Shown here in pieces: positions 10,227 to 63,720 of a stretch of DNA of 64,000 nt (position 1 is the stretch's first letter; each line of letters opens with the position of its first letter). The DNA is from a bacterium (GTDB lineage: Bacteria; Patescibacteriota; Gracilibacteria; BD1-5; UBA6164): positions 1 through 64,000 of the forward strand of contig JAGXIW010000003.1 in NCBI GenBank assembly GCA_024635475.1, given 5' to 3'. The position numbers and the translations under genes are program-made. The notes under the pieces were generated by a model. The model made no database searches, was not told where the DNA came from, and saw only the letters and a program-made list of their open reading frames with translations.

Positions 10227-10315
10227 GTCATTCTGAATTTTTATGAAGAATCCCTTAAACAATGTCTTTTATATTTATTCAAGTTAAAGGGATACTTCGT
10301 TTCACTCAGTATGAC
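10227..10315. repeat. 89-bp palindromic element (gtcattctga ... ctcagtatgac)
   Basis: Inverted-repeat ends; closely similar 89-bp copy at 26165-26253. Confidence 0.8.
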
Positions 10316-11872: not shown

Positions 11873-12011
11873 GTCATTCCTGGCTTGACCAGGAATCTAT
11901 CAATTCACTAAACTTTTTTAATTCTCTTAATAGAAATAAAATATGTTTGTTTCTTAAGTTAGTTTAAATCCTCTTTACCTTAGGGATCCCCGGGTCAAGC
12001 CCGAGGATGAC
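11873..12011. repeat. Palindromic element with gtcattcctggcttgaccaggaatc ... gatccccgggtcaagcccgaggatgac ends
   Basis: Terminal inverted repeats; intergenic between def and clpB. Confidence 0.7.
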
Positions 12012-26164: not shown

Positions 26165-26253
26165 GTCATTCTGAGCCTAAGCGAAGAATCCCTTAAACAA
26201 TGTTTTGTGCATTTATTAAGGTTAAAGGGATACTTCGTTTCTCTCAGTATGAC
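26165..26253. repeat. 89-bp palindromic element, second copy
   Basis: gtcattctgagcctaagcgaagaatcccttaaacaatg...ttaaagggatacttcgtttctctcagtatgac; near match to 10227-10315. Confidence 0.85.
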
Positions 26254-32665: not shown

Positions 32666-32786
32666 GTCATTCCCGCGAAGGTGGGAATCTTCCTTATATT
32701 GTATCTAATTTCTAAATTCTAGATTATTTTATATTTCAATATTTTTTTAATATAAGGTAGATTATCGGACTAAATCCGATAATGAC
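32666..32786. repeat. Composite palindromic element (gtcattcccgcgaaggtgggaatc ... gattatcggactaaatccgataatgac)
   Basis: Two hairpins bounded by GTCATT/AATGAC ends in intergenic space. Confidence 0.7.
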
Positions 32787-48670: not shown

Positions 48671-50467
48671 ATGATTAAAACTCATTGTAAATACTGTTTG
48701 TGTGATATGATTTTAGAAGACTCTGATTTTGAAATTTATGAGAAATTGTCTCCTATAATTAATTGAAATAAATATATTTTAAAACCAGTCAATATCTGCC
48801 CCGATTGCTATGAGCAAATAAGATTGAGTTTTAGAAATAAAAGAAATCTATATAAAACAAAATGCGATTTTTCTTGAAAAGATATTATTTCTATTTATTC
48901 TCCAGATAAAAATATCAAGGTTTATGATAAAGATATATGGTGGAGTGATAAATGGAATGCTTTAGATTATGCAATGATATTTGATGAAAATAAATCATTT
49001 TTTGAACAATTAAACGATTTAGTATACAAAGTTCCATTTCCAAATTTGAGTATTGTAAATTCTGAAAATTCTGATTACAATGATAGTCTTCTAGATTCAA
49101 AAAATGCTTATATGTGCTTTTGAAATAACAATATTGAAGATACTTATTACACCGAAGAATCAAGGCTTATCAAAAATTCTTCTGATATATGGTGGTCTGG
49201 AGAAATAGAAAAATCTTATGAATGTATAGATTGTTCAAATATATATAATTCAAAATATTGTTACAATTCAAGTAACTGTTCTAATGTAATTTTTTGCAAA
49301 AAATGTTATAATTGTCACGACTGTTTTATGTGTTACTGACTTGAATCAAAGAAATTTTATATACTTAATAAAGAATATACAGAAGAAGAATACAAAAATA
49401 AGATGAAAGATATTGATTTATCTGATTACGATAAATTATTGGATTATATACAACTCTTTAAGGATTTTGAACTAACTCTTCCACATATGAATTTTCAAAC
49501 TAATAATTCTCTAAATTGTATATGAGATTATGTTTATAACTCAAAAAATTCAAGTAATTGCTTCAATATAGTTTGAGTTCAAGATTCAAAAAATCTATAT
49601 GAATGATGAAGATGTAGTGATGTGTATGATTCAAGTTTTATTTATGATTTAGAATGACCTGTAATTTGATCAGTTACAGTCTTTATGTCTTGTAAAAATG
49701 TGTATTTTTCAGAATATATTTATGATAATTGTTTCAATATATTTTATAGTTTCAATTTAAAATCCTGTAAAAATTGTTTTTGATGTGTATGACTTGTTTG
49801 AAAAGAATATTGTATTTTAAATAAAGAATATAAAAAAGAAGATTATTTCAATGAAGTTGAAAAGATTATTAAATCAATGATGAAAAACAATGTTTGGTGA
49901 AATTTTTTTCCCGCAGAATTATCAAGGTTTTGATACAATGAAACTGAAGCGAATGAGTATTATCCTCTGAGTAGAGAATCTGTCATTGCGAGTGTAACGA
50001 AGCAATCCAGTAAATATTGAATTAATAACAAAACGATGCTTTCTGGATCGCCACACTTCGTTCGCGATGACAATTCTGAAACTTTCATTCAATGACCTAT
50101 TTTTAATTGGTCTACCTACGAAGCTCCTTTTCCAAAAGTAGATAAGATTATTTCTGCTCTAAAACTTCCCAGTAAGACAAAAGATATCCCAGATGATATA
50201 CTAAATCGGGCTATAAAATGTGAAGAAACTTGAAAACTTTTTAAAATTAGTCCTTTTGAATTAAAATTTTATAAAGACAATAATTTATCTATTCCTAGAT
50301 TTCATTATGATACCAGATATAAACATAGGTTATTATTAAAAAATCAGAGGAAAATATATGAAAGAATTTGTGAGAAATGTGGAATAGAAATAAAAACGAC
50401 CTACTCTCCAGAAAGACCAGAAATAGTTTATTGTGAAACTTGCTACAATAATTATATTTACAAATAA
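48671..50467 (+). CDS. Zinc-ribbon/Asn-Cys-repeat protein (type A), carrying an in-frame palindromic insert
   Basis: N-term CKYCLCDM...ICPDCYEQIRLSFRNKR; repeats SKYCYNSSNCSNVIFCKKCYNCHDCFMC; C-term CEKCGIEIKTTYSPERPEIVYCETCYN. Confidence 0.88.
49982..50071. repeat. 90-bp palindromic element inside a coding sequence, in frame
   Basis: gtcattgcgagtgtaacgaagcaatcc ... ggatcgccacacttcgttcgcgatgac terminal inverted repeats. Confidence 0.88.
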
Positions 50468-50562
50468 TTTCAAACACTAATAATTTCAAACTTTGTCAAG
50501 ATTAGATTTGATTTTATAAATATTTTGAATATATTATTTTAAACTATTTTGTATAAACTTAT

Positions 50563-52815
50563 ATGTATAAAACTCACTTAATAAAAATATATCATTCTTA
50601 CACCAAATGAAAAAAGTATGTTGATGACTTTTTGAAGGATGTTTGAAAAACTCTTGAATGAAAAAAAATGATTTTTTGAATCAATTTTTCTGGTGGAGAG
50701 ATATTTTATAGTTATACTTCGTCTGATGAAGTATATTCTGCTTTTGAATCACAATTTTATACATATTTCAATGATTTTCAATTGATTGAAGATAAAAAAT
50801 GAGTTTGGAATTTTGATAAAGATAGGACTGTTATATGAGAATTAACCCTTGAAAATTCTTGGTTTTATCCTTTTAAATATTCAACGACTGATAATACAGA
50901 ATTTGTATTTAATATGTTCAGAAGTTTTGAAAATTTCTCTATTATAAAAGACAAAGTTTGAGTCTTTACTGAAATTAAGCCCCTTCATTGAGAAAGCTTT
51001 AAGTTTTTTGTGAAATCAAAATTTAAATTTATGATGTTTAAATTTAAATTGATTTTTACATTTTTTAAATATATGCTTAATCACAAAATCCAGAAATGAC
51101 GGAAATGATTGTGAGATAAATATTATAAATACAAACTTGAACAAGAATTATTTGAAACCAAATTTTATATAATTGTTCAATGAGAAACCAAAAATCATGC
51201 TGAGTGAAAACTTAAATGACTATTTAATAATTTCTTGGTTTTTAAAAATTATCCTCTAAATCAATTCAAACTAAGAGTTATTAGAAATATTTCTCAAATT
51301 ACCCCTTTTTGAATAAGCGAAATTAAAAATAATTATGTTTGTACACACGAGGAAATCTCATCTATTTTTCATTTCCCAAATAAACCAAGTAGTGAGACTT
51401 CACTATTAAAAGTAACTGCAAAAAAACTTTCTCTTCCTATTTGAGTACCGACTTTTGATTTTGATGTTCTTAAAAATGGTGAGATAATACCAAAAAATTA
51501 TCCATTAGATTTAAATATAGTTTGAACTTCAGATTTTAGAAGTATAAAAGTCCCAGTTTGAATTTATGATGAAGATAGACTTAGACATCTATATATAATT
51601 TGAAAAACTTGAACTTGAAAATCAAAATTTCTGACAAGTATGGTAATCGATGACTTAAAACACGGAAAATGAATCTGATTGATTGATCCTCATGGAGATC
51701 TGATTGAAGAAGTTATCTCTCATATCCCCCCAGAAAGGATGAAAGATGTAATTATCTTTGATCCAACAGATGAACAATTTCCTTTTTGCTTTAACCCACT
51801 TGATATCAAAAAAACTGAGAGTAAACAAATATTAGCTAAATGATTTATTGATATATTTTATAAATTCTTTTGAGCAAACTGGAATGCAAAGCTCGAACAT
51901 GTGCTTAGAATGATATTTTTAGCACTTTTAGATAAACCAAATTCAACTCTGTTTGATATAATTAGAGCTTTAACTGACAAAGATTTTAGATATGATATGA
52001 TTGAACACATAAAAGATGATGTAGTTAGAAATTTCTGGACAAACGAATTTGCTGGATGGAGTCAACAATTCAATACTGAAGCAATTATGCCGATATTGAA
52101 TAAAGTATGACAATTACTTTCGGTTGATATACTTAAAAATATATTTTCAAGTCATGAAAATAAACTTGATTTTGCAGAAATGATGAATGAAAGCAAAATA
52201 TTACTAGTAAAACTTCCAAAATGAAAACTTCAAGCCGAAATAATGTGATTTTTGGGAGCAATTTTTGTAACCAAGATATTTCAAGCTGCGATGTGAAGAC
52301 AATGAATGTCAAAAAATGATAGAACACCTTTCTTCTTGTATGTAGATGAGTTTCAAAACTTTGCTACTGATACTTTTTGAGAGATACTTTCTGAGGCCAG
52401 AAAATACTGATTATCTTTGTCTGTTGCTCACCAATTTATAAAACAAATTCCACCTAATTTAAGTGATGCCTTATTTTGAAATGTATGAACTTTGATAAGT
52501 TTTAGAATTTCAAGTGAGGATGCTATTTATATGGAAAAACACTTTGATCCTTATATAAAAAGCTATGATTTAGCAAACCTAAATCAAAGAGAATTTTACT
52601 GTAAATTACTTGTAAAATGACAAGTAAAAGACCCATTCTCTCTAAAAAGTATTTATGTTCCTGATAGAAAAGTACCTAAAGATTATGTGGAACAATTGTA
52701 CCAATTATCAAGAAATAAATATGCAAGAAGCTTACTTGAAGCAAAAAAGAAAATCATAGAAGAACATAAGGATATAGTTGAGAAATTGGATAGTTTTGCT
52801 GAGCCGATAATTTAG
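50563..52815 (+). CDS. TraD/VirD4/HerA-like type IV secretion-type ATPase
   Basis: 750 aa; LYIIGKTGTGKSKFLTSMVIDDLKHGKGIGLIDPHGDLIEEV; FFLYVDEFQNFATDTFGEILSEARKYGLSLSVAHQFIKQI. Confidence 0.9.
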
Positions 52816-52972
52816 GAGTGGGTAGTGAATTGTACTTAATTATGCAATCTATTTAAAAACTATTTTTTAGAATTTTTATAAAAATTGGATAAAATAAAGT
52901 GAATTTTCTTTGAGTTTTTGGATTTAAATAGTATATTGCAAGTAAAAGTTTTATTTTTAAATGTAAAATTTT

Positions 52973-53608
52973 ATGGTAGATTTTTTTAGAAAAGATTTAG
53001 AACTTAGTAAAAAATGGTGGCATAGGTTATTTAAATTTTTATTTATAATCTTCATATTTTGATTTATTTATAAAACATTTTATATAGATCTCACAGAAGA
53101 ATCTTTTTATCATTATAAAAGAATTGCCAATTTAGAAGACAGATTAACATATAAGGTTTCAAAAATTGAAGATGTACTCAAATATTGAGAAAGATTTGAG
53201 GATTCAAATTGGCAAACAGAAAAAGACTATTGGAATAAAAATATTTATTGTTCAAATAAACTTTATGATATAGAAAATCTAAATTATATTATTAAAGATT
53301 CTTGAATTAATAATTTTGATAGATTTTTTTATGATGAAAGTAGTACAAGTGTAGAGGAATTTTCAAAAGTAATAAAAAATGATAATATAAAGTGTATTAT
53401 AAAAGATAATGCTCAAGTTGATTTTTTAAATCCAATGGAACAATTTAATGATTTTTGATTTTATGAAAAAAGTGTAATTCAATATATTAAAGATGCTTTA
53501 TTTATACAAGAATTTCTTATAAAATTATTTTTATATATGATAGCTATATATATTTTTTACTATTGGATAATTATGTATATTATATATTGAAGAAAATCTG
53601 ATAAATAA
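52973..53608 (+). CDS. Membrane protein, hypothetical
   Basis: 211 aa with N- and C-terminal TM segments. Confidence 0.65.
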
Positions 53609-53651
53609 AAAAATAGGGCTTTTTATAATTTGAATAAGTAAAATTAAGTAA

Positions 53652-54365
53652 ATGAATACAGAAAGTAAAAATCAAATTCATCAAATTATAGATGAACTTA
53701 TAAAATTATCTGAATGAATTAAAGATTGAGTAATAACAAATAAAGAACATGATGAATCATTTTCAAATAATATTCAAAAGATTTATTTAATTTTAGAAAA
53801 AGATTCTTTTGAGTATAGAAAGTTTGATAGTTGGAAAATTTCAAAATATTTATATACTACTAGAACTATTCCATGATATTGTAATAGTGATTTGAAAATA
53901 TTAGATTTAATTTGAATATTAAAAGAAATAACTTGATATAATAATATAGAAAATGAAAAACATTTTAAGGTCTGAGATAATTACGAAATAATAAGATATT
54001 TATCAAAATTATTTCAAAATGTCAAAAATGAAGTTTTAATAGTTGATAGTTATGCTGATTCAACTTTATTTGATTATATTGAGGAAATTGAAAAAAATAT
54101 AAATATAAATATTCTTACATCTTGAAATTATAAAACAAATTTTAAAAATTTATATTTAGTTTACTCTAATTGAAATTTAGAAACAAAAATATCTACAACA
54201 AATATTCATGATAGATATATAATTTTAGACCGAAAAATAATATACTTAGTTTGAATTTCATTTAACTGATTTTGAAAAAGTGATTTTACGATAAAACAAT
54301 TAGATGATATTAATAAAATTAATGATTTGTATGACATTTGGAGTAATTCTTTATATTTAGAATAA
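53652..54365 (+). CDS. PLD-like domain protein, hypothetical
   Basis: EVLIVDSYADSTLFDYIEEIEKNININILTS ... IHDRYIILDRKIIYLVGISFNGFGKSDFTI (H-D-R-Y + GxSxNxxGK signature). Confidence 0.65.
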
Positions 54366-54368
54366 AAA

Positions 54369-54402
54369 AAGATGCCTACTGTGTAATACAGAGAGCATCT
54401 TC
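54369..54402 (-). terminator. Hairpin aagatgctctctgtattacacagtaggcatctttttttatt (minus-strand orientation)
   Basis: Stem-loop followed by T tract on the minus strand, downstream of 54466-54702. Confidence 0.7.
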
Positions 54403-54465
54403 AAAATTTATAAGTCCTTTTTTCTAATCTACTTTTTAGGTAGTAAATCAAAAGTCGTTTTTATT

Positions 54466-54702
54466 TTATCACCTTGGTGGAAAATAGTCATTTCAAAAAG
54501 AATCTTTAATATGAATTTTATGCTCTTTTTTTGTAAAAGCTATTAACTCAAGTCATTGATTTTTTGCTACATTTCTTGCATTTTCCAGTGCCTTCACTTT
54601 AATATTAGATATACTTATAGCTCTTTTAGAATTAGGTTTTTCAACTCTCCAATTTTGATTTTGTTTATCATATTGAACTAATATTTTGTTAGATTTCATC
54701 AT
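54466..54702 (-). CDS. DUF2188-like small protein
   Basis: KILVQYDKQNQNWRVEKPNSKRAISISNIKVKALENARNVAKNQGLELIAFTKKEHKIHIKDSFGNDYFPPRG. Confidence 0.75.
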
Positions 54703-55097
54703 TGTGTTATTTATTAGGATTTAAAAGCTCATTGCAAAGAGGATTTTTAATTTTACTATTCTATTATTGCTCTATAAATTAAAAATTTAATTTTTAGAAT
54801 TTCATCTATTTTATAGTTATTGTATAAATCATTTGCTTTTTGCTTACAAAACCATAAAATCTTTTCACTACAAAAAATCTACATATGGAAAACATCAGCT
54901 CCAAACTAGTTGGTGTTTTTTATTTGCTAAAAATTAGTATCATATTTTATTTTAAGTAATAAATTATTTAGATTATATTTTTAATTATCATAAAGTCAAA
55001 CTTAATCTAACATTAAATGTTCGTTTTTATAAAATCATTTGCTTTTGTGATTTTTTTCACTAAGATATAAGCACTTTTAATAATTAATATTAATTAT

Positions 55098-55910
55098 ATG
55101 AAAGAATCTAAAATAAATGACTTGTTAAAAAAACTTAGAGAAGAGTCTTGATATAGCCAAGAACAACTTGCAAGTATGCTAGACTTATCAAGATCAAGTA
55201 TTGCACATATAGAAATGTGAATTAGAAAAATTAAAGCTGAAGAATTACAAAAATACTCAGAAATATTTGATGTAAATATTGATTTTTTACTTTGAAAAAC
55301 TGATGAATCAAAAGTAAAAAAAGATTATGATAAAAAGAAATTTATAGAATTGCTTTTATATATATTAGAAAAATGTTGAGCAAAATATAATGTTTGAAAA
55401 ACAGTTTTATATAAAATTTTGTATTTTGCTGAATTTGATTTCTTTGAAAGGTATAAAAAAAATTTAAGTTGAGTAAGTTTTGTAAAACTTCCTAGATGAC
55501 CAGCTCCCTTTTGATTTGATTTTATTGTTAATGATCTGATAAAAAAACAAGAGTTAGTTAAAGTAATTGCTCCTTATTATTCAAATTATTTTCAAGAAAG
55601 ATTTATTCCAAATAGAAAAATAAATATTGATATTTTCTCTAAAGAAGAAAAAGAAGTTATTGATGATGTAATAGAAAGATATTCTGACTTTTCTGCATCT
55701 GAAATAAGTGAAAAATCTCATGAAGATTTCCCATGGAAAATAACAAAAGATATGGATGTAATAGATTATAATTTAGTAGATAATAGAAGTTACCCATATT
55801 CACCCCTTGCTAGAGAAAATAAGAAAAAAGAAGTCCAAGAGTTTGCAAAAATGACAGGCTTTTTTAATGATTTAATTAATGAACCAGATTTATATGAAGA
55901 ATACAGATAA
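55098..55910 (+). CDS. HTH + Panacea/SocA-like (DUF4065) antitoxin
   Basis: XRE HTH (LREESGYSQEQLASMLDLSRSSIAHIEMGIRK) followed by VLYKILYFAEFDFFERY...LPRGPAPFGFDF...SASEISEKSHEDFPWK. Confidence 0.78.
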
Positions 55911-56235
55911 TTTTATTTTTTGAGATATAATTCTCGCAGAATATATTTTTAGTGATAATTCTAATTCAAAATTAAGACCTGTTTTAGTGTTATTTAAAGA
56001 AGCTGATGATTACACAGTTTTGAAAATTACATCTCAATGACAAAATATTGATAATTTTACTATTGTTCTAGAACCAAATAATGAAAATAAAATAAAAATC
56101 ACCTCTTATTTAAAAGTAAAAAAGATAAATTCTTTTCATGAAAAATTGTTTAAAGAGAAAAAAATCTGAAATATTTCAAATAAACAAAAAGAAATTCTAA
56201 AAAGTAAATTATCTAATTTATTTAATAACTTATAG
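55894..56235 (+). CDS. MazF/PemK-like putative toxin
   Basis: FIFGDIILAEYIFSDNSNSKLRPVLVLFKEADDYTVLKITSQ; overlaps the antitoxin ORF. Confidence 0.75.
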
Positions 56236-56300
56236 TCTTTTATTTGCAAATCTATACTTTTATCATAAAATACTAAAAATTAATTTTTAGTATTTTATTT

Positions 56301-56954
56301 ATGTCAGAATTAGTTAATGTAATATCTCTTGATAATCCATATATCAGCTTTCCAATGGATAGAAAGGCTTTTTATAGTGAACAAATTGAAGAATTTCAGA
56401 AAAATTGAAAACCAACTAAAGCTGTTGAGATAGTAAATATCTTTTTATTTAACAAAGAATGACAATTAATACTTCAAAAAAGATCAAATTCAAAGACTCA
56501 TAATCCTAACTTAATAGACAAATCAATTTGATGACATATTGATTATGGTAATTCACCAAATTTTACCGTAATGCTTGAAACTGTTCAAGAATTACAAGTT
56601 CCATCAATAGTCTTAAATAATGATGATGATTTTAATAAAACTCTAAATTTATTAAAGGATTATACTGCTACAACTGCAGTAATAAAAAATTTCTGAACTC
56701 AATTGGTACATATTGACAAGATAATTGATTGAAAAAATATTGAAATATCTAATAAAACTCATTTATATATTTGAGTATATGATTGATCTATAAGAAATGT
56801 AGATAAAGAAGCTAAAGGAGTTTTATTTTATTATCTAGATGAACTTGATGATGAAATAAAAAAATTTGAAAGTACATTTACTTGAGATTTGATATATTAT
56901 ATAAAAAAATATAGAGAATATTTTGAAGATTTTGTAAATCAGATTAAAAAGTAG
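56301..56954 (+). CDS. NUDIX-like hydrolase with degenerate Nudix box
   Basis: LFNKEGQLILQKRSNSKTHNPNLIDKSIGGHIDYGNSPNFTVMLETVQELQ. Confidence 0.75.
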
Positions 56955-56982
56955 AGAAAGTATATTAAACTTGTAAAATAAC

Positions 56983-57021
56983 AAAAAACAATTAAATTTA
57001 TATAAATTTAATTGTTTTTTT
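56983..57021. terminator. Hairpin aaaaaacaattaaatttatataaatttaattgttttttt
   Basis: Perfect palindrome plus T tract. Confidence 0.85.
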
Positions 57022-57025
57022 TATT

Positions 57026-58750
57026 ATGAATAAAGAAAAAGTACCTGTGCTTCGTAGTCTTGACGAAGAAGTAGTTGAAACTAAAGTTTGTAAACATTGT
57101 TGAGTTTCTTTTGAAATCACTGATAAAGACTTAGAATTTTTAAATAAACTTTCACCAAAATTTAATGGTGAAAGTTTTCAAATTCCTCCGCCAACACTTT
57201 GTCCAGATTGTAGACAACAAAGAAGACTGAGTTTTAGAAATGAAAAAACAATAGTTTTTAGAACTTGTGATCTGACTTGAAAGAAGATTTTTTCTATGTA
57301 TTCCCCAGATAAGAAATATAAAGTATATCATTATGAAGATTGGTTTACCGACAAATGGGATGCAAAAAGCTATTGAAAAGATTTTGATTTTTCTAAAAGT
57401 TTTTTTGAACAATTTCATGAATTAGATTTAGTTGTACCAAAAATGTCACTTTCAAATTTAAATATGGAAAATAGTGATTTTGTAAGTCAAGCATGACATT
57501 GTAAAAATTGCTACTTGATTTTTAATGCTGATATGGACGAAAATTGTTATTATTGAAAAAATATATTCTTGTCTAAATATTGTGTTGATAGTTTTTGAGT
57601 TTGAGAAAGTGAACAATGTTATAATTGTATAAGATGTATACAATGTTTTGATGTAAAAAACTGAATGTATTCATATAACTGTAGAGAATGTAATTATGTA
57701 TTTTCTTGTATTTGATGTAATAATTGTACTTGATGTGTAAGTCTAAATAATTCTGAATTCAGTATATTTAATATAAAATACTCAAAAGAAGAATATTTTA
57801 AAAAATTAGAAAAATTAACAAAAGAAGATATTGAAAATTGATACCAAAATTTATTTAGAAATTTTCCAAAAAATGCACTAGTTGATGTAAAAAATTCTGA
57901 AGATATATTATGAGATCTTATTTCATGATCTAAAAATATTTATAAAAGTTTTGAAATTGCAAATTCTAGAGATGTAAGGTATTCTACAAATATTGTTAAT
58001 TCTGAAGATATATTTGATGTAAATTATTTTTGAGTATGACTAAGTAAAGCATATGAATGATCTGTTGTGTGATACTGATCAAATTTATATTTTTGTTTTG
58101 ACTGTTGGAATAATGTTGATAATCTAATATATTGTTTTTTCTGTGTAAATTGAGTTAAAAATTGTTTCTGATGTTTTTGACTTCATTCAAACGAACAGTA
58201 TTGCATCCTAAATAAACAATATACAAAAGAAGAGTATGAAGAATTGGTTCCCAAAATCATAGAATATACGAAAAAAACATGAGAGTGGTGAGAATTTTTC
58301 CCTAGTTCTATTTCTCCTTTTGGTTATAATGAAACGGTTGCAATGGAATATTTTCCGATTTCAAAAGAAAAAGCATTAAAAGAAAAATTTAATTGGTATG
58401 ATTATGAAGCCCCATTTCCAAAAGTTGATAAGATTATTCCTGCATCAAAATTACCTCTTGATATTAAATCTATCCCTGATGATATACTTAATTGGGCAAT
58501 TGAGTGCGAAATAACAAAGAAACCTTTTAAAATAATAGCTCAAGAACTTGATTTTTATAGAAAACATAATTTACCTATTCCAAGAAGACATCCTGACCAA
58601 AGGCATTTGGATAAAATGGCTCTGAGAAACCCAAGAAAGTTATTTGATAGAAAGTGTGATAAATGTTGAGTTTTAATAAAAACTACTTATAATCCTGATA
58701 AAAAAGAAATAGTTTATTGTGAAAAGTGCTATAACAAAGAAATTTATTAA
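57026..58750 (+). CDS. Zinc-ribbon/Asn-Cys-repeat protein (type A)
   Basis: 574 aa with UGA=Gly; CKHCGVSFEITDKDLEF, LCPDCRQQRRLSFRNE, NCYY/CYNC repeats, QYCILNKQYTKEEYEELVPKI, CDKCGVLIKTTYNPDKKEIVYCEKCYNKEIY. Confidence 0.9.
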
Positions 58751-58769
58751 TATTTATCTTAAAACACCC

Positions 58770-60494
58770 ATGCAACAAGAAAAAGTACCTGTACTTCGTG
58801 GCTTTAGCGAAGTAGTAGTAGAAACAAAAAAATGTAAATTATGTTCTGTAGATTTTGATATCACAGATAAAGACCTGGGGTTTTACGATAAAATTTCACC
58901 TATTTATAACTGAGTGAAATATAATATTCCAGTACCAACTTTATGTCCAGATTGTAGACAACAAGAAAGACTCACTTTTAGAAATGAAAGAAAACTTTAC
59001 AAAAGAAAATGTGATGCAACTGGAAAAGATATTATTTCGATGTATTCTCCGGATAAAAAATATAAAGTATATTCTCAAGAAAAATGGTGGTCTGATAGTT
59101 GGAATGCTTTAGATTACGGAAAAGAATTTGATTTTTCTAAAAACTTTTTTGAACAATTTGAAGAATTATATAAGGAAGTCCCTTTAGTTTCACTTACCAC
59201 AGATTATACTAAAGATGAAAATTCAGCTTATACAAATTTTGCTTGATCAAACAAAAATTGTTATCTTATTTTTGATTCTGATTTTAATAGAGATTGTATA
59301 AATCTTTCTTCATCTACAAAAAATGATAACTGTATAGATTGTTATTCAACACATAATTCAAATTTTTGTTATCAAACTGTTTGAGTTGAAAATTGTTATA
59401 ATTGTTTTTATCTAGTCAATTCTATAGATTGTAATGAATGTTATGAATGTGATAGTCTTATATGATGCAAAAATTGTTTTTGATGTGCAAATCTCAGTAA
59501 TGCTGAATATCAAATTTATAATAAACAATATACAAAAGAAGAATATGGGAAAGAACTTGCAAAAATTTTAGGAACTAAAAAAATAAAATTCAATAATTTT
59601 CTTGACTATCCAAAAAAATTTATGATTACAAACAGGTCAGAAAATGTTACCGGGAATTATATTTATGACTCAAAAAATATAGATAATTCTTATGAGATTT
59701 ATAATGCAGAAGACTGTAAATATTGTTTTTGAGTTCATGATATTAAATCTTCTTATGATGTTTCTGGTTTTTGAATAGCTGGGCTTGATAGAATCTATAA
59801 TTCACATGTAGTATGAATTTGAGGATATAATGTTTTCTTTTCAAATATTGTAGTACAATGAAGTAATAATATTTATTATTCAAATACAATTTATAATAAT
59901 TCATCTAATCTTTTGGGATGTGTAGGATTGGTTTCAAAACAATACTGCATCCTAAATAAACAATATACAAAAGAAGAATATGAGGAATTAGTGCCAAAAA
60001 TCATAGAACATATGAAAAAAACATGAGAATGGTGAGAATTTTTCCCAAGTTCTATTTCACCATTTTGATACAATGAAACCGTAGCAATGGAGTATTCTCC
60101 ACTTTCTAAAAATGAAGCGATAGAAAAATGATTTATTTGGTCAGATTATGAAACACCCTTTCAAAAAGTAGAAAAAGTAATTCCTGCAAATAAATTACCA
60201 GAAAATATAACTAATATTCCAGATGATATTTTGAATTGGGCAATTGAATGTGAGGTTACAAAAAAACCTTTTAGAATAATTAAACAAGAATTAGAGTTTT
60301 ATAGAAAACATAATTTACCAATTCCAAAAAGACATCATGATCAAAGACATCTTGATAGAATGGCTCTTAGAAATCCTAGAAAATTATTTGATAGAAAGTG
60401 TGATAAATGTGGAGTAGATATAAAAACAACTTATTCTCCAGATAGAAGTGAAATTGTTTATTGTGAAGAGTGTTATAATAAAGAAGTTTATTAA
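58770..60494 (+). CDS. Zinc-ribbon/Asn-Cys-repeat protein (type A)
   Basis: 574 aa; same architecture as upstream gene, near-identical termini. Confidence 0.9.
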
Positions 60495-60512
60495 TTTTTT
60501 ATATAAGAATAT

Positions 60513-62003
60513 ATGAGTAATCTAAAATATTGGCAAGATAAAATAAAAGAAAAAAGAAAACATACTCCATTTGCTGATTTTTTGAAAGAAATAGTTAGTT
60601 GGTCACCAATTGTTTTTTATAAAAATAATTGATTAATTTCAAAATTTCCAGAAACTGATAGAATAAAAAAAGTTATTCATCATAGTGAATTTGAAAAAAA
60701 TATAGAAAATTTAATGGAAAAATGAACACCTTATGATTTTGGAGTAGATTTTTTTGAAAACTATAAAAATTTATTATTAAAAATAGATTTATTTAATTTT
60801 ATATCTTATTGATGAAATGAAAATAGTGATTATTGAGATGTAATTTTAAATTCGAAAAATTGTTATCTAAGCTTTACTGTTATAAATGATTGCGAAAATA
60901 TTTTGTATTCTTATTCTATTAAAGATAATTCTTCAAATGTATTAAATTCAGTTTCTGTGTATCAAAATTCAGATAATATTTACTTTTGAAGATGAATTGT
61001 AGAATCGTACAAAATATATTATTCTTCATTTATAAACAATTCAAATAATATTTGGTTTTCTTCAAATCTAAATTGATGCAGTGAGTGTTTATTTTGTAAC
61101 GATTTAGATAATTGTTCATATTATATTAAAAATAAAAAATATTATAAGCAGGATTACTTAATACAAAAAGAAAAAATACTAAAAGATAAACAAAAATTTT
61201 TCTCATATTATAAAGGGGTGGATAAAGCTTGAAAAAATATTAACTCAACAAATGTAGTTGGAAGTTGATTTTTTAATTCTGAAAATGTAGAAAATGGGTA
61301 TTTTTGATATAATGTAAAAGAATGAAGAAATTTAATGTTTGTTTGATGAATTAATTGAAATCAACAAATGTATGATGTTTTTACAGGTTGATCATGAACT
61401 TCTGACAATTTATACTGAATAGTGTGAGCAAATTGAGATAACTTGTATTCTTGTATGAATATTGTTATGAGTTCAAATTTATATTATTGTTATTTTTTGG
61501 AGAATTGTTCTTTTTGTATAGGTTGTATTTGACTTCGTAATAAATCATACTGTATACTAAATAAACAATATACAAAAGAAGAATGGGAAACATTAGCAGA
61601 TAAAATATTTACTCAAATGGAAAAAAATAAAATATTATGAGATTTTTTTTCAGCAAAACTAAATCCATTTTACTTTAATGACACGATTGCAGGACTATTT
61701 TGAAATTTCAAAAAAGATGAAATAATTGCAGATTGATTTTTATGGAGAGATTGAGAAATAAAAGTAGATATTCCTGAATTAGTAGAAATTATTGATACTA
61801 AAGATTTAAATAACTATCAAGGTTATGATGTAAATTGAAATTGGCAAATTAACCCTGAAATATTAAAAAAAGTAATTAAAGATTCAAACTGAAATATATA
61901 TAAAATAATAAAAATGGAATATGATTTTTTGATGAAACATTCTCTTCCATTACCAGAAATTCACTGGTTGGATAGAATAAAATTGTGACTTATTGGTAGA
62001 TAA
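60513..62003 (+). CDS. Asn/Cys-repeat protein lacking terminal zinc ribbons (type B)
   Basis: 496 aa; NSKNCYLSF, NSNNIWFSSNLNGCSECLFC repeats; SYCILNKQYTKEEWETLADKI shared with type A. Confidence 0.85.
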
Positions 62004-62025
62004 ATAACTTATTAATAAATGAAAT

Positions 62026-63720
62026 ATGTTTGAAAATGAAAAAGTAGTAAAATCAAAATTATGCAAATATTGTAATTCAAGTTTTTTAATTACAGACAAG
62101 GACTTAGAGTTTTACGATAAAGTTTCACCAAAATTTAATGGTGAAGTTTTTCAAATCCCCCTACCAACACTTTGTCCAGATTGTAGAGAACAAAGAAGAC
62201 TTAGTTTTAGAAATGAAAGAAAACTTTACAAAAGAAAATGTGATGCAACTGGGAAAGAAATAGTTTCAATATATTCGCCCGATAAACCTTATAAAGTATA
62301 TAATCAAGACTTCTGGTGGAGTGAAAAATGCGATACTATGGATTATGGAAGGAGTTTTGATTTCTCTAAAAGTTTTTTTGAACAATTTGGAGAGCTTTTA
62401 AGAGATGTACCAAAACAAAATTTAATATGAGCAAATAATCAAAATTCAGCTTATTGTAATCTAACAGCAGACAATAAAAATTGTTATCTAATATTTGAAA
62501 GTTCAAATAATGAGGATTGTCTTTTCTGACATTGGTTACAAAAATGTAATCATTGCACTGATTGTAATTTTATGCATCAATGTGAATTATGTTATGAATC
62601 TTTGGATTGTTATGATTGTTTTAATTCAAAATATTTATTTTCATGTAAAAATTGTTCTGATTCATATTTTTTAGAAGATTGTATTTGATGTAAAAATTGT
62701 TTTTGATGTGTAAATTTACTAAACAAAGAATTTTATATATTCAATAAACAGTATTCGCAAAAAGAATATTTTGAAAAAATTGATAAATATATTGTAAATA
62801 ATGATTTTAAACAAGAATTTTTAAAAATATCACAAAGTTATCCTAAAAAATATTTAAGAATTTTAAATTCAATTAATTGTTTATGAAATCAAATTGAAGA
62901 TTCAAAAAATTGTATTTACTGTAATCATGCTCATGATGCTGAAGATTGTAAATACTCTGAACATGTTTGGAGAAATGCAAAAGATTGTATGGATGTTAGC
63001 ACTGCTTGAAGAGATGCTGAATATATATTTGAATGAATAAATTGTTGAATTTGAGTTTATAATTTTAAATATTGTGTTCAGTGTTGGACTGGATCAGACT
63101 TAATTTATTGTATGTTTGGTAGTAATATACATAATAGCTTTTGATGTGTATGACTTGTAAATAAATCCTATTGTATACTAAACAAAGAGTATTCTAAAGA
63201 AGAATACGAAGAACTGGTTCCAAAAATACTAGAACATATGAAGAAAACCGGAGAGTGGTGAGAGTTTTTTCCTAGTTCTATTTCACCATTTTGATACAAT
63301 GAAACAGTAGCAATAGAGTATTTTCCACTTGTAAAAGAAGAAGCAATAAAAAAATGATTCAACTGGTCTACTTATGAAGCCCCATTTCCAAAAGTAGATA
63401 AAATAATTCCTGCATCAAAACTTCCAGGTGATATAACAAAAATACCTGATGATATACTAAATCGGGCTATTGAGTGTGAAATTACAAAAAAACCATTTAA
63501 AATAATATCCCAAGAACTTGATTTTTATAGAAAATACAATTTACCTATTCCAAAAAGACATCCTGATCAAAGACACTTAGATAGAATGGCTCTTAGAAAT
63601 CCTAGAAAATTATTTGATAGAAAGTGTGATAAATGTTGAATTCAAATAAAAACTACTTATTCATCAGATAAACCTGAAATAGTTTATTGTGAAGAGTGTT
63701 ATAATAAAGAGGTTTATTAA
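62026..63720 (+). CDS. Zinc-ribbon/Asn-Cys-repeat protein (type A)
   Basis: 564 aa; CKYCNSSFLITDKDLEFYDKVSPKFNGE ... CDKCGIQIKTTYSSDKPEIVYCEECYNKEVY. Confidence 0.9.

Follow-up and report, generated by a model that had tools for sequence, protein, structure and literature searches.

In-frame palindromic repeats in protein-coding genes of a gracilibacterium that reads UGA as glycine

The zinc-ribbon gene considered here, from a bacterium of the Gracilibacteria that uses genetic code 25, is interrupted in frame by a 90-bp palindrome that is a TGTC-tagged, REP-like head-to-head dimer and belongs to one of several palindromic families resident in the genome. Our preferred reading, to which we give a probability of roughly 0.78, is that such repeats spread, that most insertions into coding sequence are lost, and that in-frame insertions are kept in tolerant linkers, which have been filled independently by lineage. 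The DNA analysed (‘the window’) is a stretch of 64,000 nucleotides, corresponding to positions 1-64000 of contig C4 in a 1.35-Mb genome of 8 contigs (G000).

Structure of the insert and its host gene

Features of the window are listed by position and strand, with the evidence for each in parentheses.

48671-50467, plus strand: host gene, whose 598-aa product under code 25 is rich in cysteine and bears a zinc ribbon at its C terminus (table 25 ORF, weak Pfam match, 73% identical ortholog in genome G004)
49982-50071, plus strand: palindromic insert, a head-to-head REP-like dimer encoding V438-D467 (fold, absence from paralogs, repeats in the genome)
49981-50010, plus strand: left monomer, with TGTC tag, ATTGC/GCAAT stem and CCAG tail (sequence, monomer scan)
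50043-50072, minus strand: right monomer, with TGTC tag, ATCGC/GCGAT stem and CCAG tail (sequence, monomer scan)
50018-50020, plus strand: UGA codon within the insert, Gly450 (table 25 translation)
57026-58750, plus strand: paralog without insert, 29-aa linker (alignment, linker survey)
58719-60494, plus strand: paralog without insert (alignment)
60513-62003, plus strand: more distant paralog without insert, 27% identical (alignment)
62026-63720, plus strand: paralog without insert, 29-aa linker (alignment, linker survey)

The palindrome (GTCATTGCGAGTGTAACGAAGCAATCC ... GGATCGCCACACTTCGTTCGCGATGAC) has exactly the extent given in a preliminary description of this DNA, with TGTC tags at 49981-49984 and, on the opposite strand, at 50069-50072. 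The stems of the two monomers differ from each other, each being self-paired over a perfect outer stem of 5 bp with GA mismatches beyond; folded as a single strand, the element reaches -27.3 kcal/mol (z = -4.45 relative to dinucleotide shuffles, with 0 of 200 equalling it). A known structured RNA was rejected as an identity for the element, as the sole Rfam match was sub-threshold and located outside it. The insert adds 30 residues without breaking the frame, including VIASVTKQSSKYGINNK and an arm peptide of the ..SEGQ type, and its single UGA is read as glycine, as had been proposed; these residues would presumably be present in the mature protein.

Residues 560-594 of the host protein give a weak match, below cut-off, to the Pfam family zf_Tbcl_2; no homolog was found in the PDB at E 0.1, and a structure model built from the five window paralogs (pLDDT 48) was too weak to show the linker as an exposed loop. 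In comparison with the G004 ortholog, the gene has a dN/dS of 0.11 before the insert and 0.165 after it; both values are approximate, synonymous differences being near saturation. Because of these ratios on either side of the insert, sequence comparison indicates that the gene is under purifying selection rather than decaying, in keeping with the original claim of an insertion that leaves its host gene active. A decaying pseudogene, which the preliminary description had named as a possible objection, or an assembly artefact, is hard to credit given this constraint on both sides, the in-frame linker repeats that orthologs in two other genomes possess in their own right, and the recurrence of the same pattern in many conserved genes.

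With 46 match stretches in this genome, the host family is a large one; alignment confirmed that all four other paralogs in the window lack the insert. The paralogs form a long array of unassigned function, running from 48671 to 63720 in the window and on to approximately position 99621 of contig C4 (loci L113 and L114); between paralogs, their C-terminal part is ∼60% conserved, versus ∼40% for the rest, which might reflect gene conversion.

Palindromic families of the genome

The window element escaped a simple scan for two-arm hairpins, so a monomer scan was adopted; as this yielded many chance matches (99, versus 43-67 in five controls), we retained GC-rich tagged monomers alone and curated the dimers manually. 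Besides the window element, curation gave at least 21 further head-to-head pairs in a 504-kb stretch of contig C4 that was sampled as a proxy for the whole genome. Genome-wide, the exact pattern of the element occurs in 7 copies (reversed control pattern, 0) and a looser spacer gives 11; partial copies are also present, and contig C6 has a copy between genes that matches 92 of the 110 query bases at 79%.

Other families share this layout, including GTCATTCTGAG..GAAGAATC, with 30 matches in the genome and representatives in 60 of the 382 phylum genomes sampled, as well as GTCATCCTGAACTTGTTTCAGGATC and further families recognized by the monomer scan; the ATCCTGAA..TTCAGGAT repeats of the genome have a stem of ∼8 bp. 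Among 156 distinct GA-type monomer sequences, Watson-Crick pairs are kept at variable stem positions in 92% versus 46% with shuffled partners, and at further stem positions in 88% versus 56% and 65% versus 31%, shuffles that ignore the relatedness of the sequences. Plasmid matches were short, weak and mostly alphaproteobacterial (one Novosphingobium record had at least 40 places), and literature searches with the raw motif returned unrelated primers.

The window also harbors four intergenic TGTC-tagged REP-like dimers (10227-10315, 11873-12011, 26165-26253 and 32666-32786) and, at positions 1-127, a tandem array of a 21-bp unit, AAACAAAGCTGATCAAACTGA.

Copies in other genes

A search for further copies within coding sequences, as had been suggested, found ten dimers inside genes by hand curation of the 504-kb sample, and others outside it. 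The ten hosts are two zinc-ribbon paralogs, DnaE, PrmC, QueA, a FemAB-like protein, a glycosyltransferase, UvrD/PcrA, a penicillin-binding-protein-like protein and an unassigned membrane protein; copies elsewhere, or partial copies, lie in ArgS, MurD, an RsmF-like protein, MnmA, TsaE, RnpA, TilS and UvrC. Hosts were named by Pfam or recognisable sequence (TilS, UvrC and the penicillin-binding protein by eye). In the conserved genes the frame is open on both sides of the repeat: QueA aligns with PDB 1yy3 on both sides of its insert (query 70 to 110 against chain 74 to 83), and UvrD likewise with PcrA, 1pjr (query 364 to 400 against 345 to 349).

Sites without an insert are seen in RsmF and MurD orthologs of the same genus. 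The sites in RsmF, MurD and ArgS show no clear target-site duplication, a trait of MITEs, although ortholog divergence could hide a short one. A strict automatic list places 4 of its 17 elements in genes, versus 88% coding sequence (P = 1e-9), a depletion that would follow from the loss of most coding insertions. Separately, a UvrC-like gene (L298, G000:C2:116159-120183) seemingly contains two separate in-frame repeat pieces.

Influence of the genetic code

Each of the ten in-gene dimers includes at least one UGA read as glycine in the code 25 translation, and in nine the right arm peptide ends in GQ, encoded by TGA CAA. Frames open over 22 dimers amount to 35.6% under code 25 versus 12.9% under code 11, an excess that suggested permissiveness and led us to seek a control in Patescibacteria that use code 11. 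There, ORFs contain 18 of the 71 copies of one family, in TGA-free frames, compared with 2 of 9 copies of the same family in the genome studied here; the ORF test is a simple one that could overcount in GC-richer controls, and few copies were sampled. On this control, permissiveness of the code is unsupported as the cause of the many in-gene copies: UGA reassignment alters the frame that is read, while the share of copies in coding sequence is not measurably raised. In standard-code Patescibacteria we also observed in-frame copies in housekeeping-looking genes at eight loci (L232, L234, L235, L236, L246, L254, L261 and L283), with hosts that, by eye only, are apparently UvrD, MiaB-like, TsaD, UvrC, ValS and YchF.

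A linker occupied by many repeats

The insert of the host gene lies in the linker preceding the C-terminal zinc ribbon. The 74 homologous linkers compared, from this genome and its relatives, include 34 of 29-30 aa, which contain no repeat, and 40 of 36-91 aa, mostly with a palindrome other than that of the window gene; the earlier statement that paralogs pass directly over the segment thus describes the four window paralogs but not the wider family. At least ten unrelated kinds of palindromic repeat were recognized by eye at this position, in various paralogs and genera, including several TGTC-tagged families, C-rich palindromes such as CCCTCCCC..GGGGAGG, GACCGGTC repeats and a GATGCGAT-CA-ATCGCATC hairpin. 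The linker is a hot spot shared by diverse repeats, a point beyond what the preliminary description had observed. In G003, two loci on contig C64 (L117 and L118) have nested or tandem repeats in one linker, with up to five successive in-frame REP-like monomers encoding CHPEHQ-type peptides.

The closest orthologs of the host gene, in two other genomes (73% and 66% identical), contain in-frame linker repeats of their own, unlike that of the window gene. In a comparison with orthologs, as had been proposed, empty sites were found for other copies (RsmF, MurD); here the site is filled differently. The linker repeats tested (two TGTC families and one C-rich) are dispersed elsewhere in the same genomes. 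The repeat GTCATTCCTGCGAAGGCAGGAATC has 20 matches in G010, 6 in G003 and none in G004 or G012; GTCATCTCGAGCGAAGTCGAGAGATC has 11 in G003, 10 in G004 and none in G010 or G012; and the C-rich repeat occurs, among the genomes tested, in G000 and G003 only. Because the tested repeats reside elsewhere in the genomes whose linkers they occupy, the distribution points to insertion from a local repeat pool in separate lineages; inserts common to paralogs of one genome are probably due to duplication.

Insertions of at least 15 aa cluster at three junctions of the family (36 of 72 at residue ∼442, 22 at ∼33-36 and 8 at ∼408), and this use of three separate junctions rather than one site supports tolerance. 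The concentration of repeats in the same linker of orthologs, and at the same place in MurD of G000 and G003, where the repeats differ, counts against that reading, since it could also mean targeting, in which the mobilising activity would prefer certain places, such as DNA already containing a REP, so that repeats nest in or replace one another. Such targeting, which would also explain the nested or tandem copies in G003, seems unlikely to us in view of the three junctions hit, the many single insertions scattered over unrelated genes, and flanks that, in the copies examined, share no evident target beyond a T/A next to the tag.

We regard as less probable still that repeat-coded segments are functional and have been favored by positive selection for diversifying the linker of an amplified family. 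Linkers do differ even among close orthologs, and the family is indeed large, but 34 of the 74 homologs retain a short linker free of repeats and similar inserts are found in unrelated housekeeping enzymes.

Discussion

In the reading that we prefer, that of spread, loss and tolerance, the elements would have been distributed by some mobilising activity, a mobility suggested by their dispersal, and most insertions into genes would have been lost. In-frame copies in tolerant linkers would be kept and translated, usually as ∼25-35 extra residues, probably at near-neutral cost. The linker before the C-terminal zinc ribbon, presumably exposed, would be especially tolerant, such that different lineages fill it independently with their own repeats, and reading UGA as glycine would allow translation of arms at which a bacterium with the standard code would stop. 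We consider it rather doubtful, if slightly less so than targeting, that linkers of the amplified family and of some essential enzymes are recurrent landing sites in which each lineage independently places repeats resident in its own genome, and that reassigned UGA codons, by letting these be translated, provide code-25 bacteria with a continuing, directed or selected source of new protein segments.

These observations add a recoded lineage of a candidate phylum to the known hosts of in-frame palindromic insertion, and show such insertion in essential genes. A single linker that holds at least ten kinds of repeat in some homologs and is empty in others offers a natural series for testing the conversion of repeat to protein. 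For annotators, such genes seem broken under code 11, yet are not.

Comparison with known palindromic elements

In-frame palindromes are classically known from Rickettsia, and the preliminary description likened the window insert to them. The likeness stands for a dispersed palindrome that inserts in frame without inactivating its host, but such behavior is not peculiar to Rickettsia, as intragenic REPs are known from many species, in genes that include those for DNA repair and tRNA modification (PMC3733652), and in-frame copies also occur in code-11 Patescibacteria. Rickettsia palindromic elements (RPEs), especially RPE-4 and RPE-6, which correspond to the CGTC-4 and CGTC-1 REPs, respectively (PMC3733652), resemble the present inserts, by description, as short palindromes in frame in intact host genes; they differ in host phylum, and the inserts described here are read via UGA as glycine. 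Wolbachia palindromic elements, compared by description only, are likewise palindromic repeats of an intracellular bacterium and are named beside RPEs, but are reportedly unrelated to CGTC REPs (PMC3733652).

RAYT-linked REPs are also short dispersed palindromes, often in inverted pairs, but have a GTAG tag instead of the TGTC of the window element. Mobilisation by RAYT was rejected: the Y1 transposase (PF01797) was not found in the genome studied here, which is 93% complete, while control genomes gave matches.

The element also resembles the CGTC/TGTC REP superfamily (Di Nocera et al. 2013, PMC3733652), in the TGTC tag, A-T first and second stem pairs, CCA tail, predominance of head-to-head dimers, intragenic copies (in two Xanthomonas recB genes, a REP lies at about the same site; PMC3733652) and lack of a dedicated transposase, as reported for CGTC-type REPs (PMC3733652). 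Superfamily stems of 8-9 bp with loops of 4-5 are not matched by the window monomers, with their 5-bp outer stem, and Patescibacteria are not among the five host phyla in that study. Because the fit extends to the tag, the first stem pairs, the tail and the arrangement as a dimer but not to stem length, we call the element CGTC-REP-like rather than a member of the superfamily. New here, relative to these systems, are the recoded host, a UGA-encoded glycine in each of the in-gene inserts curated from the sample, and a linker hot spot shared by multiple repeat families.
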